35,760 nt of DNA from contig JAKSHX010000008.1 of assembly GCA_024399155.1 (NCBI GenBank), positions 1-35,760 on the forward strand. Direction: 5' to 3'. This document shows, one piece after another, positions 19,350 to 26,326 of the stretch (positions are counted from its first letter, which is position 1; every line of letters starts with the position of its first letter). The notes under the pieces were generated by a model. It saw only the letters and a program-made list of their open reading frames with translations. It had not been told where the DNA came from and searched no databases. A program made the translations under genes and the position numbers. Source of the stretch: an archaeon. Lineage in GTDB: Archaea > Thermoplasmatota > Thermoplasmata > Methanomassiliicoccales > Methanomethylophilaceae.

Positions 19350-20624
19350 GTGTCATTTTCTACTATCGACGTTAGGAAAACAAATGCAGGCATACCTGTT
19401 ATAATAGAGGCGATTCCGAGTGCACGTAGTTCAGGTTATCTTGTTGCCGTAAGAACTGGTTCCAGAGACGAATCTTCGAATATAGGTGGTCTTTCTCATT
19501 TATTAGAACACGTAGTGTTCAGAGCAACAAAGACTCGTACTTCGTTTCAGATGTCGAAAGAGATCGAAGGTGCAGGAGGGGAGTTTAACGCATTCACATC
19601 CAAAGAGATGACAGCTTTTTATGCTGTTACGATAAAAGAAACGGAACCCGTTGCAAAAGATATTGTTGGTGACATTGTTGCCAATCCAGTCATAAGTAAA
19701 GAAGCCACAGAACTGGAAAAGAGTATAGTTATGCAGGAGATCAGTATGGTCGAAAATGACCCTGAAAAATATATTCATGATCTATTTGACATGGCCATTT
19801 GGAAGGGACACGAGCTTGCACAAACTGAGGCTGGTACAACCGATACAGTCAGAAATTTAACAAACGTTGATCTCAGAAATTATTACGAAAATAAGTATAA
19901 GGCGCCAAACTTCACTGTATTTGGCGTCGGTGCAGTAAATGGTGATGATGTAGTTGAATGGTCAGAATCTATCTTTGACCCATTAGTCGGAGGGAACTAC
20001 AATCAAAGAAAAAAGCCAGATGTTTGCAATTCAGGCTATACACTTCATAGAAGAAATGAAGACCATTGCTACATGGCGATGGGATTCAAATCCTATGAGT
20101 CTGACAACCCTAAAATAAACGCGCTTAAAATTTTGAGCATCATTCTTGGTCACGGTATTTCTTCAAGACTGTTTCAAAGTGTCAGGGAAGAGAAGGCTCT
20201 CGTATATTCGATATATAGCATGGTCAATCAATATACTGATGCTGGGCATATAGCATCGTTCATGTCGTCTACCAGTGAAAATGTGCTTGAGGCTATAACA
20301 ACGACAGCAAAGGTGTACAAACAATTAAAGGATGAAGGACTTACTAAGGGTGAGCTAGCCAGATCAAAGAACATTTTTAAAGGCAGTTTAATCAGGAGCA
20401 TGGAGTCTACTGAGCATAGAATGTTCAGATTAGCAATAGACACAATGACTAGTGGAAAATCGACTACGCTTGAAGAACGTACAGCCACACTGGACGCAGT
20501 TACAGAAGAAGACGTAATGAAGGTTGCCAATGAAATCTTAGACCCAAAAAGATTAAACGTTGTAATGCTCGGAAGTGATGTTCAAAATATGAAAGATTTC
20601 AGCGTGGATCAGTTGGACTTCTGA
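19350..20624 (+). CDS. M16 family zinc metallopeptidase (processing peptidase-like)
   Basis: The 424-residue protein has the inverted zinc motif HLLEH at 50-54 and the downstream glutamates E123 and E130 (EKSIVMQE) that complete the site. A C-terminal M16_C domain follows, with HGISSRLFQSVREEKALVYS, the conserved R/Y-type substrate-binding block. Length equals that of single-chain PqqL or MPP-beta-like enzymes, which usually act as homo- or heterodimers. No partner subunit is next to it and no signal peptide is seen, so it is probably a cytoplasmic oligopeptidase. The start is GTG at 19350, about 26 bp after TTATATA. The 3' end overlaps the convergent protease gene by 16 bp. M16 peptidases are patchy in archaea, so acquisition from bacteria is possible. 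Confidence 0.88.
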   Translation: MSFSTIDVRKTNAGIPVIIEAIPSARSSGYLVAVRTGSRDESSNIGGLSHLLEHVVFRATKTRTSFQMSKEIEGAGGEFNAFTSKEMTAFYAVTIKETEPVAKDIVGDIVANPVISKEATELEKSIVMQEISMVENDPEKYIHDLFDMAIWKGHELAQTEAGTTDTVRNLTNVDLRNYYENKYKAPNFTVFGVGAVNGDDVVEWSESIFDPLVGGNYNQRKKPDVCNSGYTLHRRNEDHCYMAMGFKSYESDNPKINALKILSIILGHGISSRLFQSVREEKALVYSIYSMVNQYTDAGHIASFMSSTSENVLEAITTTAKVYKQLKDEGLTKGELARSKNIFKGSLIRSMESTEHRMFRLAIDTMTSGKSTTLEERTATLDAVTEEDVMKVANEILDPKRLNVVMLGSDVQNMKDFSVDQLDF

Positions 20625-21100
20625 AATTCCTGGATTAGATATTCTACGGCGGTCGTTGCTTTTTTAATCGATGCATTAACTTTTTCTGTTAAACCCTCAT
20701 GCATTGTTTGAACGTCTTCAACCTCTATCGCTACAAATTTTACAGAGACAGGCATCTCTTCTGGATTCATTTTTTTTCCAATCACTATCGCGGTGGTGAG
20801 GTTAATACCATGTGTCGGGGTATCAGCTATCGTCGACTCAAAATCTTTAAGATCAAAGATCATAACCGTTCCAGGTTCATATTGTTCGGTTTTAATGGCA
20901 TCTATGATTATTGCGTGGTGGTACCCTAAAAGGATTGGTATTATATCCAGTCCTCCTACAGTCTCCTGACACGTATCTACGCCGCTGAGATGCTTATCTT
21001 CAATATTCTGTGCAACTATCAGACCGATAGCATCATCTGACATAATTGAATTTCCGAGTCCAATGACAAGTATTCTTCCCTTCGTATCTTTCAACGGCAT
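20609..21100 (-). CDS. Hydrogenase maturation protease-type peptidase (HycI/HyaD family)
   Basis: The 163-residue protein has the family hallmark GLGNSIMSDDAIG at 14-26, the IIIDAIK segment with D67, and a histidine near THG at 96-98. These correspond to the nickel-sensing ligands of HycI and HybD. Such endopeptidases cut the C-terminal tail of NiFe hydrogenase large subunits after nickel insertion. In a methanogen the natural client would be an Mvh- or Frh-type hydrogenase, not encoded in this window. Its ATG directly follows the TAG stop of the DUF1538 gene (TAG then ATG, in the same frame), so it is the second gene of that operon. Confidence 0.85.
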   Translation of the reverse strand: MPLKDTKGRILVIGLGNSIMSDDAIGLIVAQNIEDKHLSGVDTCQETVGGLDIIPILLGYHHAIIIDAIKTEQYEPGTVMIFDLKDFESTIADTPTHGINLTTAIVIGKKMNPEEMPVSVKFVAIEVEDVQTMHEGLTEKVNASIKKATTAVEYLIQEFQKSN

Positions 21101-22576
21101 CTAAGTAATGCTCCTACTATGTTTCATATAAATACTCAGTACACTCAAAAATAGACATGGGGCTAAAGCTATCAGGGATATTAGTCCAAACCCGTTAATC
21201 ACTGCTTCAACTCCTTTATACATAGTAGAAGAAAGACCGACATATATTGAAGAAAGTATTGCAACTGACATAGGTCCTGTAGATACTCCTCCCGCGTCAA
21301 AGGCTATGCCGACCATATCTTCCTCACCACACCACATTAAAATTATCGTCAACACATACCCAGGGACAATTATCCATATAAAATCAAAATTAAAGACTGT
21401 TTTCGCTATACCAATGGCAACGAAGAACGCAACCCCGGACGATATAATTATCATTATAGGATTTCTAGACAGTAGGCCTCGCGAAGTTCTTTCTACTTGA
21501 TATCCAAGGATAGATACTGCCGGTTCCGCAAACGCAACCAAAAACCCTAATATAAATCCTATGCCAACGACAATGAATGGATTATTGAGTTCATGGAGTT
21601 CGATACCGAGGGCTGTGGATAAAGGCATAAATCCAGCATACACGCCTGTGAGAAATATTGTCGCGCCCAAACCAGCGAATACAACACCTTCTATCATGTC
21701 AGTTACAGCAGTCCAAGAGTATCTCAGGAAGACTTTTTGGAACAACATAAAGAAAACGATTAATGGAATCAAAGTATAAAGCACACTAATTGTGCTCTTG
21801 ATAAATTCACTTTTTACAAGTTTAAAATCTAGCGGTGCTGCCTCGACACTAGTGGTAATTTCAGATATACCGCCGTTTCCGTTGAGAATGCCCATTATCA
21901 GTAACGCAATTATTGGTCCGATGGATGCAAGACCAATCATACCGAACCCTTCCATTTTATTTCTATGCGCACCCACAGAGCAGATTCCAATACCAAGTGC
22001 CAATAATACAGGTACGGTAATTGGTCCAGTAGTTACCCCTCCAGAATCTAATGCTATGGCAATAAATTCCGTATTGTTTGATATGTAAAGATATAATGTT
22101 AATACGATAACCGCTACGTAACCTATCGTTATCATAGCTCTCAGAGACAATTTGTAAATTATCCTGAACGTAGCAACTATAAGAAAAAACGCTACTCCAA
22201 CTGCTATAAAGTATGTCAAAGTCATCGGATCAATTAATTTGAATAACGAATTAACCTGGGTCGAGAACACTATTACATCAGGTTCTGCGACTGTCACCAA
22301 GAAAGATATGGTAAAAACCACAGCAATCATAAACATTCTGGATCGTCTTTTAGGAATTTCCATGCCAATGGAACTTCCCATAGGATCAATACCAACTTCA
22401 ACGCCAGTTAGGAATGTGGTAAATCCGACAATAACCAGTACGATACAAAAGGCTAATACCAGAAGTTCCTCCATCGGCATATCAAGAATGAATCTGGCTA
22501 TGAGACTTACAGCTATGATTGCAGGTAAAATCGATCTCAACACATCTTTAAATTTATCTGCAAGTAAATAGCCCAT
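21101..22576 (-). CDS. DUF1538 membrane protein, two tandem domains
   Basis: The 491-residue protein has twelve or more hydrophobic segments arranged as two copies of the DUF1538 domain. Each copy contains an AEP-type helix (VAEPDVIVF, then FAEPAVSILG) and a glycine-rich motif (ALDSGGVTTGPITVP, then AFDAGGVSTGPMSVA). The internal symmetry suggests a transporter; the substrate is unknown. A leaderless mRNA is predicted because TATA (GTTTAATAAA on the plus strand, 22595-22604) lies about 26 bp before the ATG at 22576. Paired direct repeats flank that TATA box, and a ModE/LysR-like regulator is divergent, so regulated expression is likely. It ends with TAG directly followed by the ATG of the hydrogenase-type protease. 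Confidence 0.85.
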   Translation of the reverse strand: MGYLLADKFKDVLRSILPAIIAVSLIARFILDMPMEELLVLAFCIVLVIVGFTTFLTGVEVGIDPMGSSIGMEIPKRRSRMFMIAVVFTISFLVTVAEPDVIVFSTQVNSLFKLIDPMTLTYFIAVGVAFFLIVATFRIIYKLSLRAMITIGYVAVIVLTLYLYISNNTEFIAIALDSGGVTTGPITVPVLLALGIGICSVGAHRNKMEGFGMIGLASIGPIIALLIMGILNGNGGISEITTSVEAAPLDFKLVKSEFIKSTISVLYTLIPLIVFFMLFQKVFLRYSWTAVTDMIEGVVFAGLGATIFLTGVYAGFMPLSTALGIELHELNNPFIVVGIGFILGFLVAFAEPAVSILGYQVERTSRGLLSRNPIMIIISSGVAFFVAIGIAKTVFNFDFIWIIVPGYVLTIILMWCGEEDMVGIAFDAGGVSTGPMSVAILSSIYVGLSSTMYKGVEAVINGFGLISLIALAPCLFLSVLSIYMKHSRSIT

Positions 22577-22578
22577 AT

Positions 22579-22624
22579 TTGACGGTATTCACATGTTTAA
22601 TAAATCATTGACGGTATATCACAT
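22579..22624. repeat. Two direct repeats flanking the DUF1538 TATA box, candidate operator
   Basis: TTGACGGTATTCACAT at 22579-22594 and TTGACGGTATATCACAT at 22608-22624 differ by one inserted base and start 29 bp apart, close to three helical turns. The first lies between the TATA box and the DUF1538 start codon, and the second lies just upstream of the TATA box. This is the expected layout of a repressor site. The adjacent ModE/LysR-like gene is the obvious candidate regulator. Confidence 0.6.
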
Positions 22625-22663
22625 CCAAACCCGTCGTGGCGTGAATTTTTAATGTTGAGAGTT

Positions 22664-22671
22664 TTCTATAT
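22664..22671 (+). promoter_or_regulatory. TATA box of the ModE/LysR-like gene
   Basis: TTCTATAT lies about 26 bp before the GTG at 22693, supporting this start and a leaderless transcript. A partial third copy of the neighbouring repeat (GTATCAC) lies between it and the GTG. Confidence 0.45.
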
Positions 22672-22692
22672 CAGTATCACTATTAAGTCATC

Positions 22693-23511
22693 GTGGAGAT
22701 TGAATTCAAGACATTCGCGGTTGTAAATGGAAATAAAGTTTCGTTCAGACAGTTAGAAATTCTATCATCAATCAAAAAATATGGTAGTAAAACCGCTACA
22801 GCACGAGCGCTTGGAATATCGGTTCCAGTTGTTCATAAATATATGACACTGATGGAAAACACCGTAGGTGCTAAGTTGATGATATCCACACCAGTTGGGA
22901 CCAAACTCACAGAAACAGGATTGAAACTTCTAGAGATGTTTAGCATAATGACTGAAAGATGTAAGAACAATCATGATTTCACGGTGTCCTGTTCGCCTGT
23001 AACAGAAGAATTAGTGATACATGCCATATCACTATCAAAAGTGAAAGCCAACGTTGTAGTTTCTGATGACTGTACAAATATACGCCTTCTAAAAGAAGGA
23101 CACTCAGACATGATTATTCTCGACGATCCTCAGTTTTTAGAAGAAGTTGATAATTTCGAGTGGGACATAGTTGGATATATGGATATGATACACGTTGATA
23201 ACGGGCCGTTATACATTAAATATAAATACGGCGCGCAGAGAATTGCTTATGCACAACTTGACACGTCTGGAAAAAAATACGAAATAACCAGTGAAACATG
23301 CTACGTCCCAGATCTTTTAAATTCAAATAAAAGTTTCTTCATCGACGAGATTCTTCTTTTTAGACGTGGTGTAAAACTAAAAAGTGCCACAGAAAAAAGT
23401 CTTTTGAGACACTCCATAACTGCAGTCTACCGTAAAAGCAACAGCAAGGTTGCGCACATATTAAGAATATTGCAATCAAAAACAGACTCCGAGTATTACC
23501 TTAAAAGGTAA
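22693..23511 (+). CDS. ModE/LysR-like winged-helix transcriptional regulator
   Basis: The 272-residue protein starts with a winged helix-turn-helix of the ModE-N/LysR type (residues about 15-75; KYGSKTATARALGISVPVVH is the recognition part). A C-terminal portion follows with segments such as RLLKEGHSDMIILDDPQFLE that recall the periplasmic-binding fold. Comparable archaeal proteins are annotated as molybdate-dependent or LysR-like regulators; no metal or oxyanion ligand can be proved here. GTG at 22693 is supported by the TATA spacing and by the absence of homology upstream. It is divergent from DUF1538 across 116 bp that hold the paired repeats, which suggests that it controls that operon and possibly itself. 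Confidence 0.78.
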   Translation: MEIEFKTFAVVNGNKVSFRQLEILSSIKKYGSKTATARALGISVPVVHKYMTLMENTVGAKLMISTPVGTKLTETGLKLLEMFSIMTERCKNNHDFTVSCSPVTEELVIHAISLSKVKANVVVSDDCTNIRLLKEGHSDMIILDDPQFLEEVDNFEWDIVGYMDMIHVDNGPLYIKYKYGAQRIAYAQLDTSGKKYEITSETCYVPDLLNSNKSFFIDEILLFRRGVKLKSATEKSLLRHSITAVYRKSNSKVAHILRILQSKTDSEYYLKR

Positions 23512-23532
23512 TTGGTCTCCTATTAGAGTCAT

Positions 23533-23579
23533 CCTATATTATATACTGCAAAATCATATAGAGCCCCAGGGTAGGTATA
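23533..23579 (+). promoter_or_regulatory. Promoter and leader of hdrCB
   Basis: TATATTATATAC around 23535-23546 is a strong TATA box. The predicted start near 23566 leaves a leader of about 13 bases ending in GGGTAGGTATA before the ATG, which can pair weakly with 16S rRNA. Unlike most genes here, hdrC therefore seems to have a short leader. Confidence 0.45.
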
Positions 23580-24074
23580 ATGGTAACACTCAATCCTGAC
23601 TTTGTAAGTGAACTCGCCACTGCCGGCGGAGAAAACGCAAAAATGTGTTTTCAATGTGGAACATGTACTGCAAGTTGTCCTTCTGGAAAAAATACAGCAT
23701 ACAGAACAAGAAAAATCATGAGGATGGCGCAACTTGGTTTGAAGGATATGATCATTGGCAGCGATGACCTCTGGCAGTGCACGACATGCTACACATGTGA
23801 AGAGAGATGCCCCCGCGGTGTCCCAATCGTTGACGTAGTTATTGCGCTCAGGAACATTGCCGTCGCTAATGGTAAAATGTATGATGCTCACAAGAAGACT
23901 GCTAGCAACCTTATTAAATTCGGACACACAGTCCCCATTAACGATAAAATTAAGGCACAGAGGGTAGAACTTGGGCTTCCAGAAGTTCCTCCGACAGTTA
24001 TTGCAAATGAGAAAGCAAAAGCAGACCTTGATGTAATCTTTAAAGCTACTGGTTTTACAAAACTTATCGGGTGA
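23580..24074 (+). CDS. hdrC: CoB-CoM heterodisulfide reductase subunit C
   Basis: The 164-residue protein carries two [4Fe-4S] ferredoxin-type motifs: cysteines 23, 26, 29, 33 (CFQCGTCTASCPSG) and 67, 70, 73, 77 (CTTCYTCEERCPRG). This is the HdrC pattern. HdrC passes electrons from HdrA to HdrB in the soluble HdrABC complex, which reduces the heterodisulfide formed in the last step of methanogenesis and bifurcates electrons to ferredoxin with hydrogenase MvhADG. Length is normal. hdrB follows after 5 bp. hdrA is not in the window, so it must be encoded elsewhere. Together with hdrB this is the best evidence that the organism is a methanogen. Confidence 0.94.
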   Translation: MVTLNPDFVSELATAGGENAKMCFQCGTCTASCPSGKNTAYRTRKIMRMAQLGLKDMIIGSDDLWQCTTCYTCEERCPRGVPIVDVVIALRNIAVANGKMYDAHKKTASNLIKFGHTVPINDKIKAQRVELGLPEVPPTVIANEKAKADLDVIFKATGFTKLIG

Positions 24075-24079
24075 TTATA

Positions 24080-24925
24080 ATGGCTAAATATGCGTTTTTC
24101 CTTGGGTGTATCGCACCACTAAGATATCCAGGCATCGAAAAATCTACAAGAGTCGTTGCCGAGGCACTTGGAATCGAGCTCGTAGATCTTACAAATGCAA
24201 GTTGTTGCCCGGCACCTGGTGTTATCAGGGCGTTTGACAAAAAAACATGGATTGCAGCCGCTGCAAGAAATCTTGCCCTTGCGGAGAAAAATGGGCTAGA
24301 CATCTTGACCATATGTAATGGATGCTACGGGTCACTTTTTGATGCAGCTCACGAACTCTCAGAAAATAAAGATCTACTCGCAGATGTTAACGAGATTCTT
24401 TCGAAGATTGGACTCGAGTACAAAGGAACAACTAAGGTCAGACACTTCGCAGAAGTACTTTACAATGATATTGGCATCGAAGCTATTAGATCAAAGATTG
24501 TCAAACCTCTCGAGTATGAGGTAGCAGCATTTTACGGGTGCCACTTCCTTAAGCCTAGCAAAATTAAGCAATTAGATGACCCAGAGAATCCACACATTCT
24601 CGATGAATTAATTAGTGTGACAGGGGCTAAGTCCATGCCTAGAAAACAAAAGGTACTTTGTTGCGGAGCGGGAGGAGGTCTCAGGGCAGGATTTCCAAAT
24701 AATGCAATGAAGCTTACAGAGACTAACTTAGAAAACATCAAAGAATCTGGAGCAAAATACATAATCGATGTATGTCCGTTCTGTCACTTACAGTTCGACA
24801 TCGGTCAGAAAGATTTAGGATATACCTTCCCTGTCCTCCATCTTTCACAACTCTACGGTATAGCGATGGGTATGGACGTCAAAGAGCTTGGGTTATCAGC
24901 TCATCAAACACCCGTTACGCTTTGA
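24080..24925 (+). CDS. hdrB: CoB-CoM heterodisulfide reductase subunit B
   Basis: The 281-residue catalytic subunit has both complete CCG motifs (C-x31-C-C-x35-C-x2-C form). The first has C10, C42-C43, C79 and C82; the second has C154, C194-C195, C232 and C235. These bind the two unusual non-cubane [4Fe-4S] clusters that cleave the CoM-S-S-CoB disulfide. The ATG at 24080 is preceded by GGGTGA with five bases of spacing, a good Shine-Dalgarno sequence that overlaps the hdrC stop. An upstream GTG at 24071 is therefore not preferred. A GC-rich hairpin follows the TGA. Confidence 0.96.
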   Translation: MAKYAFFLGCIAPLRYPGIEKSTRVVAEALGIELVDLTNASCCPAPGVIRAFDKKTWIAAAARNLALAEKNGLDILTICNGCYGSLFDAAHELSENKDLLADVNEILSKIGLEYKGTTKVRHFAEVLYNDIGIEAIRSKIVKPLEYEVAAFYGCHFLKPSKIKQLDDPENPHILDELISVTGAKSMPRKQKVLCCGAGGGLRAGFPNNAMKLTETNLENIKESGAKYIIDVCPFCHLQFDIGQKDLGYTFPVLHLSQLYGIAMGMDVKELGLSAHQTPVTL

Positions 24926-24926
24926 A

Positions 24927-24965
24927 ATTTTTTAGGGGTATAAATCCCCCATTTTCCATTTCTTT
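24927..24965 (+). terminator. Hairpin and T-rich tail after hdrB
   Basis: GGGG-TATAAAT-CCCC (24935-24949) forms a short GC stem between two T-rich stretches, with the T-rich tail CATTTTCCATTTC behind it. The position right after hdrB fits transcription termination. Confidence 0.45.
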
Positions 24966-25407
24966 AATGTTTAATCCATACCTGTAGGGTTGAACATACA
25001 ACTCAGATACAAATTCATAAAAATATTCGCACTTATAACGTTGTACCTCTAACTCCACGCGTCCAATTTTTTATCGTGAAAAATGTAATAAAGTCAAGGC
25101 TTTGTCAGCAACCCTACCATAATAGGGGTTATTTTTACAATCTAAGTACTCAGATGTTAGTATTGCCGATACAAGTTAGTCGTAGTACATGACCGAGTCA
25201 CATCGTCCCTTCATTATACCCATCAAAAGATCTTATTACACGGTGAGATATTGCTACTCTAAACGTTTTGACACCAATTTGTATCCTAATGTAAATTCTA
25301 ATATAATTTTGTTCACTCATGCAATAGACTATATAAATGTATTATTTCAAAATGAAAAATATTGCACATTTGTTATGACCACTTATATATAATATTATTG
25401 AACAATG

Positions 25408-25417
25408 TATATATATG
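25408..25417 (+). promoter_or_regulatory. TATA box of rps3ae
   Basis: TATATATATG predicts a start near 25438 and a leader of about 20 bases containing GAGTGA five bases before the ATG. A second TATA-like run lies at 25382-25394. Confidence 0.45.
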
Positions 25418-25457
25418 ATAAGTATATCAACGAGTTATTAAAATTAGAGTGACTGTA

Positions 25458-26219: not shown

Positions 26220-26326
26220 GCCGAGGTGGCTCAGCCTGGTGGAGCGTCGGACTCATAAGGTTGCAAGGTCAATAGATCTCTTCCAGAGAAATCCGAAGGT
26301 CATGGGTTCGAAACCCATCCTCGGCA
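26220..26326 (+). tRNA. Elongator tRNA-Met (CAT) with a 33-nt intron
   Basis: Exons give the acceptor GCCGAGG/CCTCGGC, the D stem GCTC/GAGC, the anticodon stem TCGGA/TCCGA with loop CTCATAA, and the T arm ATGGG-TTCGAAA-CCCAT, with discriminator A. The intron occupies about 26258-26290, between positions 37 and 38, the canonical archaeal site cut by the bulge-helix-bulge endonuclease. The ends may shift by a base or two because of repeated A. G1-C72 and the non-GGG anticodon stem make it an elongator and not the initiator. No CCA is encoded. Confidence 0.92.

Follow-up and report, generated by a model that had tools for sequence, protein, structure and literature searches.

A LysR-type regulator and a conserved palindrome upstream of hdrCB in Methanomassiliicoccales

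Genes of the locus and their conservation

The window (the whole stretch of DNA analysed here, 35,760 nucleotides from a Methanomethylophilaceae genome of the order Methanomassiliicoccales) contains two divergently oriented sets of genes (Table 1). One comprises the genes for a DUF1538 membrane protein and a hydrogenase maturation protease; in the other, the gene for a LysR-type regulator is followed by hdrC and hdrB. HdrCB is part of the enzyme that acts in the last step of methane production, and the Methanomassiliicoccales are methane makers in the guts of people and livestock. The DUF1538 and protease genes abut (21101/21100), for which reason it is plausible that they form one operon.

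Table 1. Features of the regulator locus, with positions in the window and the basis of each assignment
Feature	Position	Strand	Basis
Hydrogenase maturation protease	20609..21100	-	TIGR00072 3e-25, over cut-off
DUF1538 membrane protein, UmpA- and UmpB-like halves in one chain	21101..22576	-	Pfam DUF1538 1e-107
Repeat copy 1, TTGACGGTATTCACAT	22579..22594	+	Sequence read; seen in this genome only
TATA-like box TTTATTAA of the plausible DUF1538-protease operon	22597..22604	-	Sequence read
Repeat copy 2, TTGACGGTATATCACAT	22608..22624	+	Sequence read; seen in this genome only
LysR-type regulator, 272 aa	22693..23511	+	HTH_1 2e-9; AlphaFold2 pLDDT 92; Foldseek
Candidate operator palindrome GTATTACC-TTAAAA-GGTAATTG	23493..23514	.	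Overlaps regulator stop codon; conserved before hdrC, 79 loci
hdrCB TATA box ATTATATA	23538..23545	+	23 bp past palindrome
hdrC, CoB-CoM heterodisulfide reductase subunit C	23580..24074	+	TIGR03290 1e-60, over cut-off
hdrB, CoB-CoM heterodisulfide reductase subunit B	24080..24925	+	TIGR03288 4e-122, over cut-off

The regulator carries an HTH_1 domain (37.7 bits against a Pfam cut-off of 26.6) that is present in all 42 members of its family. An AlphaFold2 model, obtained from an alignment of 42 sequences, has a mean pLDDT of 92, and its best Foldseek matches are full-length LysR-type regulators, e.g., CbnR, CcmR and OxyR (E-values to 1e-14 over about 300 alignment columns; the TM scores, only 0.4-0.58, probably reflect a different domain arrangement). 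The predicted model has the LysR fold with a C-terminal effector domain resembling periplasmic binding proteins. The corresponding Pfam family, LysR_substrate, goes unrecognised in the window protein and is weakly matched in 4 of the 42 family members. A first-pass annotation of this DNA had described a ModE/LysR-like regulator divergent from the DUF1538-protease operon. The HTH_1 domain and the gene orientation bear out the LysR-like half of that description; the ModE half does not fit, as the protein scores 28 bits with TIGR00637 (cut-off 98.5), has no ModE effector domain by Pfam and adopts a full LysR-type fold in the model. As judged from the predicted structure, the protein is a LysR-type regulator and not a ModE.

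The DUF1538 protein matches its Pfam family with 358.7 bits in two stretches, and its halves match the NCBIfam models for UmpA (7e-52) and UmpB (8e-38), both under the equivalog cut-offs. By sequence, it belongs to the family of UmpAB Na+/H+ antiporters. UmpAB of Halomonas zhaodongensis, which is made of two separate proteins rather than one fused chain, is a Na+(Li+,K+)/H+ antiporter, and antiport activity in the DUF1538 family is known for this Halomonas pair only (PMC5484666). The family assignment speaks against the initial suggestion that the protein might transport an oxyanion or a metal. The proposed connection of the protease with a nickel enzyme, on the other hand, holds up. The sole [NiFe]-hydrogenase large subunit above the family cut-off in this genome, MvhA, ends in ...DPCNSCATH-SLPGQMPLTAVIRNSDGSIYDRIARN, an extension of the kind removed by hydrogenase maturation proteases, and is the probable substrate of the enzyme.

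Orthologs of the regulator were found in 94 of 101 Methanomassiliicoccales genomes. In the 80 relatives whose loci were fetched, hdrC-hdrB lies downstream of the regulator wherever the contig continues, and almost all of them have the protease gene upstream. The 7 relatives without a regulator ortholog gave no hdrC match either (in a search without a positive control); most likely the whole locus is missing from these assemblies, which thus provide no evidence for loss of the regulator alone. The DUF1538 gene is a less regular neighbour: it sits between regulator and protease at 18 of 81 loci (the window and 17 relatives) and is present in 26 of 101 genomes, in some of them away from the regulator locus. 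The constant partner of the regulator is hdrCB, a pattern at odds with the self-contained transport unit envisaged at first, and the regulator very probably controls the hdrCB step of methane production, not a transporter. Three genomes outside the order, from other families of the class or phylum, also encode the regulator at full or almost full length, with hdrC-hdrB downstream. In all three (L221, L222 and L223, from G133, G319 and G108, respectively) the block includes the palindrome listed in Table 1, which suggests joint inheritance or transfer.

Direct repeats in the DUF1538-regulator spacer

The start points of the two direct repeats, TTGACGGTATTCACAT and TTGACGGTATATCACAT, are separated by 29 bp. 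Between them, on the minus strand (22604-22597), lies the TATA-like box TTTATTAA, about 25 bp ahead of the DUF1538 start codon at 22576, a position that would correspond to the geometry of a leaderless promoter. The repeats, their spacing and their placement around the TATA-like box are as first described; the third, partial copy close to the start of the regulator gene is weak, with no match at one mismatch or fewer. Scored as a repeat internal to the spacer (116 bp), the pair attains 13, a value that none of 1000 dinucleotide shuffles reached (best shuffle, 11).

A search of the genome revealed no second good site and no further copies above background. None of 100 relatives has the repeats, and in the 17 other DUF1538-regulator spacers the best 10-mer match to them has at least 2 mismatches. 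The same-genus relatives that were compared either lack DUF1538 at the locus or are cut by a contig end, none having an intact spacer. The idea that the repeats are a conserved operator, put forward in the first-pass annotation, does not survive this comparison, whose outcome that annotation had itself named as grounds for dropping the idea. The near-background counts in the genome and the absence of matches among the 100 relatives also led us to discard the repeats as a regulon motif. Neither do they qualify as degenerate halves of the palindrome ahead of hdrC, the best score of its position weight matrix (PWM) in the spacer being 3.9, about the 90th percentile of random pieces of the window. 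Neither an Rfam family nor an RNA structure was detected in the spacer, at the end of the regulator gene or in the hdrA leader.

Judging from these comparisons, the direct repeats appear to be a species-level feature distinct from the regulator's candidate operator. In this species alone, the DUF1538-protease operon might still use them as its operator, with the divergent regulator or some other factor as the binding protein. Their excess over chance within the spacer and the way they bracket the TATA-like box fit this idea, which we nevertheless regard as unlikely given their absence from 100 of 100 relatives and from all 17 spacers between the same gene pair, the lack of further copies in the genome and the lack of a match to the conserved palindrome in the spacer. 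Such an operator would be compatible with control of hdrCB as proposed below. All in all, the initial observation was largely right and its interpretation mostly not, and the object of interest at this locus is the unit formed by regulator, palindrome and hdrCB.

A palindrome at near-fixed distance from the hdrCB TATA box

A 22-bp palindrome with the consensus GTATTACC-N6-GGTAATAC is found 80-96 bp ahead of hdrC in nearly all of 79 loci; the window copy, at 23493-23514, reads GTATTACCTTAAAAGGTAATTG. Palindrome scores of at least 11 out of 16 occur at 74 of the 79 loci, as compared to 2.2% of random 200-bp control pieces, and scores of at least 12 at 64 loci, as compared to 0.15%. Changes in the palindrome tend to be matched across both arms: complementary arm cells number 510 out of 632, while shuffles average 442 and reach 465 at most (shuffling ignores the relatedness of the sequences). 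In many loci the 3' end of the regulator gene reaches into the palindrome, and coding constraint could account for part of its conservation. With 25.4 bits, the palindrome is the top PWM match of the window, the next best anywhere scoring 10.3, and it also ranks first in the genome, where just two further places match it within 3 mismatches. One of them is in a coding region: the second genomic palindrome, at G000:C88:7750, is located inside the gene for a KH-domain protein and was set aside as a coding coincidence.

In 78 of 79 loci, 21-23 bp separate the end of the palindrome from the TATA box, while the DNA in between carries little information across loci. That the spacing is kept while the sequence is lost points to contacts between proteins at the promoter as the constraint. 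The exception, L106, arose because the scoring chose a second palindrome farther upstream; ahead of hdrC this locus carries two palindromes, and a TATA-like box follows each of them. Outside the order, a spacing of 21 bp is seen in two of the three genomes but not in the third.

Palindromes also occur at two other positions. At 12 loci, one lies just ahead of the regulator gene itself, mostly between -32 and -11 relative to its start, where it would cover the leaderless promoter of the regulator gene. In addition, a palindrome scoring at least 11 is located upstream of hdrA-mvhDGA in 25 of 37 Methanomethylophilaceae genomes, at a near-constant -212 to -237. These palindromes are weaker than those of hdrC and have no TATA box at the hdrCB spacing; shuffled sequences would yield one in about 12% of cases anywhere in the 340 bp, and some of them would be expected by chance. 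No hdrA-upstream palindrome was found in the present genome, in its relative G002 or in the other families sampled. A PWM search of the spacer likewise yielded no palindrome at the promoter of the regulator gene in this genome, where regulation would consequently rest on the single site ahead of hdrC. In many Methanomethylophilaceae (L261, L266, L267, L279, L283 and others) a conserved TCTGGC-like element follows the hdrA palindrome by about 28-30 bp. It has no Rfam match and no TATA box at the hdrCB spacing.

The location of the palindrome at the regulator stop codon, along with the maintenance of base pairing, could denote an RNA hairpin, for instance one that terminates the regulator transcript or belongs to a leader, instead of a protein site. 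We hold this to be highly improbable: lying upstream of the hdrC TATA box, the palindrome is outside the hdrC transcript; its sequence is conserved, not its pairing alone; it recurs ahead of other promoters and matches no Rfam family.

The position of the hdrC site relative to the TATA box bears on the direction of control. Archaeal activators bind just upstream of the BRE/TATA elements at tightly constrained positions, whereas repressor sites overlap or follow these elements (PMC2995911, PMC4158304). By this measure, the hdrCB site favours activation and the autogenous site favours repression. Conversely, the regulator could sit on the palindrome to repress hdrCB or to block readthrough from its own gene until relieved by a ligand. 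The palindrome often overlaps or abuts the regulator stop codon, where a bound protein might act as a roadblock; Ptr2 has been suggested to work in this way on the gene that encodes it (PMC2995911), and the position of the hdrC site is by itself compatible with either effect. Still, the near-invariant 21-23 bp to the TATA box and the unconserved DNA in between conform to the geometry of archaeal activators, and repressors usually bind over the TATA box or downstream of it (PMC4158304). We therefore rate repression or roadblock at hdrCB as quite improbable.

Proposed control of the heterodisulfide reductase genes and related systems

We consider it likely that this order-wide LysR-type regulator acts through the 23493-23514 palindrome, most likely activating hdrCB, that it often represses itself, and that hdrA-mvhDGA is a probable further target. 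The regulator would bind GTATTACC-N6-GGTAATAC as a symmetric dimer unit and, from a near-fixed 21-23 bp ahead of the TATA box of hdrCB, would most likely aid the loading of TBP/TFB and hence transcription. The trigger would be a small molecule bound by the C-terminal domain. In most of the Methanomethylophilaceae tested, hdrA-mvhDGA is probably a second target; in some genomes the regulator would repress itself from the palindrome over its own promoter. Two neighbours may be co-regulated: the divergent protease, with its presumptive role in maturing MvhA, and the DUF1538 cation/proton antiporter that some genomes have at the locus. Previous comparative genomics of Methanomassiliicoccales noted that hdrBC lies apart from hdrA-mvhDGA and predicted a bifurcating complex (PMC4153887). 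Our best explanation, drawn from genome comparison, is that the regulator is an activator of this MvhADG-HdrABC complex that often represses itself. A more tentative extension, which we think possible though somewhat doubtful, is that one order-wide switch co-ordinates hdrCB, hdrA-mvhDGA, the regulator gene and possibly MvhA maturation, sensing a metabolite of methanogenesis or redox metabolism hitherto unrecognised as a signal.

The regulator shares with CbnR, CcmR/CmpR, OxyR and DarR the N-terminal HTH_1 winged helix and, in the predicted fold, the periplasmic-binding-protein-like C-terminal domain; an adjacent target operon, a dyad operator and frequent autoregulation would be further common traits. 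It differs from these proteins in its archaeal host, with TBP/TFB transcription, in an effector domain that Pfam does not recognise, in its candidate operator, a symmetric N6 dyad, and in its proposed target, heterodisulfide reductase. Among methanogen proteins, HdrR of Methanosarcina barkeri (MSBRM_RS03855) is a winged-HTH regulator that activates the hdrBCA operon through a palindromic promoter region (PMC11218639). Compared by description, HdrR belongs to a methanogen order other than the window's, has hdrBCA as target, is not described as LysR-type and was deposited as a hypothetical protein (PMC11218639). HrsM of Methanococcus maripaludis/voltae is a LysR-type, selenium-dependent repressor of hydrogenase operons (cited in PMC11097638). 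It acts between frc and vhc, and the passage on HrsM in that source, on which this comparison by description relies, mentions no role at hdrCB (PMC11097638). Activation from a constrained dimer site upstream of BRE/TATA is known for Ptr2 of Methanocaldococcus jannaschii and for LysM; both are Lrp family proteins with another operator (PMC2995911), whereas the window regulator is of the LysR type.

In the open-access literature searched, we found no paper on the window's regulator, which is not proof of novelty, and no regulator of the core energy metabolism of Methanomassiliicoccales. A conserved regulator with a defined candidate operator next to hdrCB offers a concrete point at which control of the heterodisulfide reductase step can be tested, and a convenient target for EMSA. 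The palindrome itself illustrates, with many loci across an order, an archaeal activator-like site whose distance from the TATA box is nearly fixed.

Downstream from hdrB, about 520 bp of AT-rich DNA (24926-25448) separate the gene from the next one, with no notable open reading frame and no Rfam match in this interval. Farther along, Rfam identifies a 107-nt tRNA on the plus strand (26220-26326, 57 bits); not called by ARAGORN, it is probably a tRNA gene with an intron.
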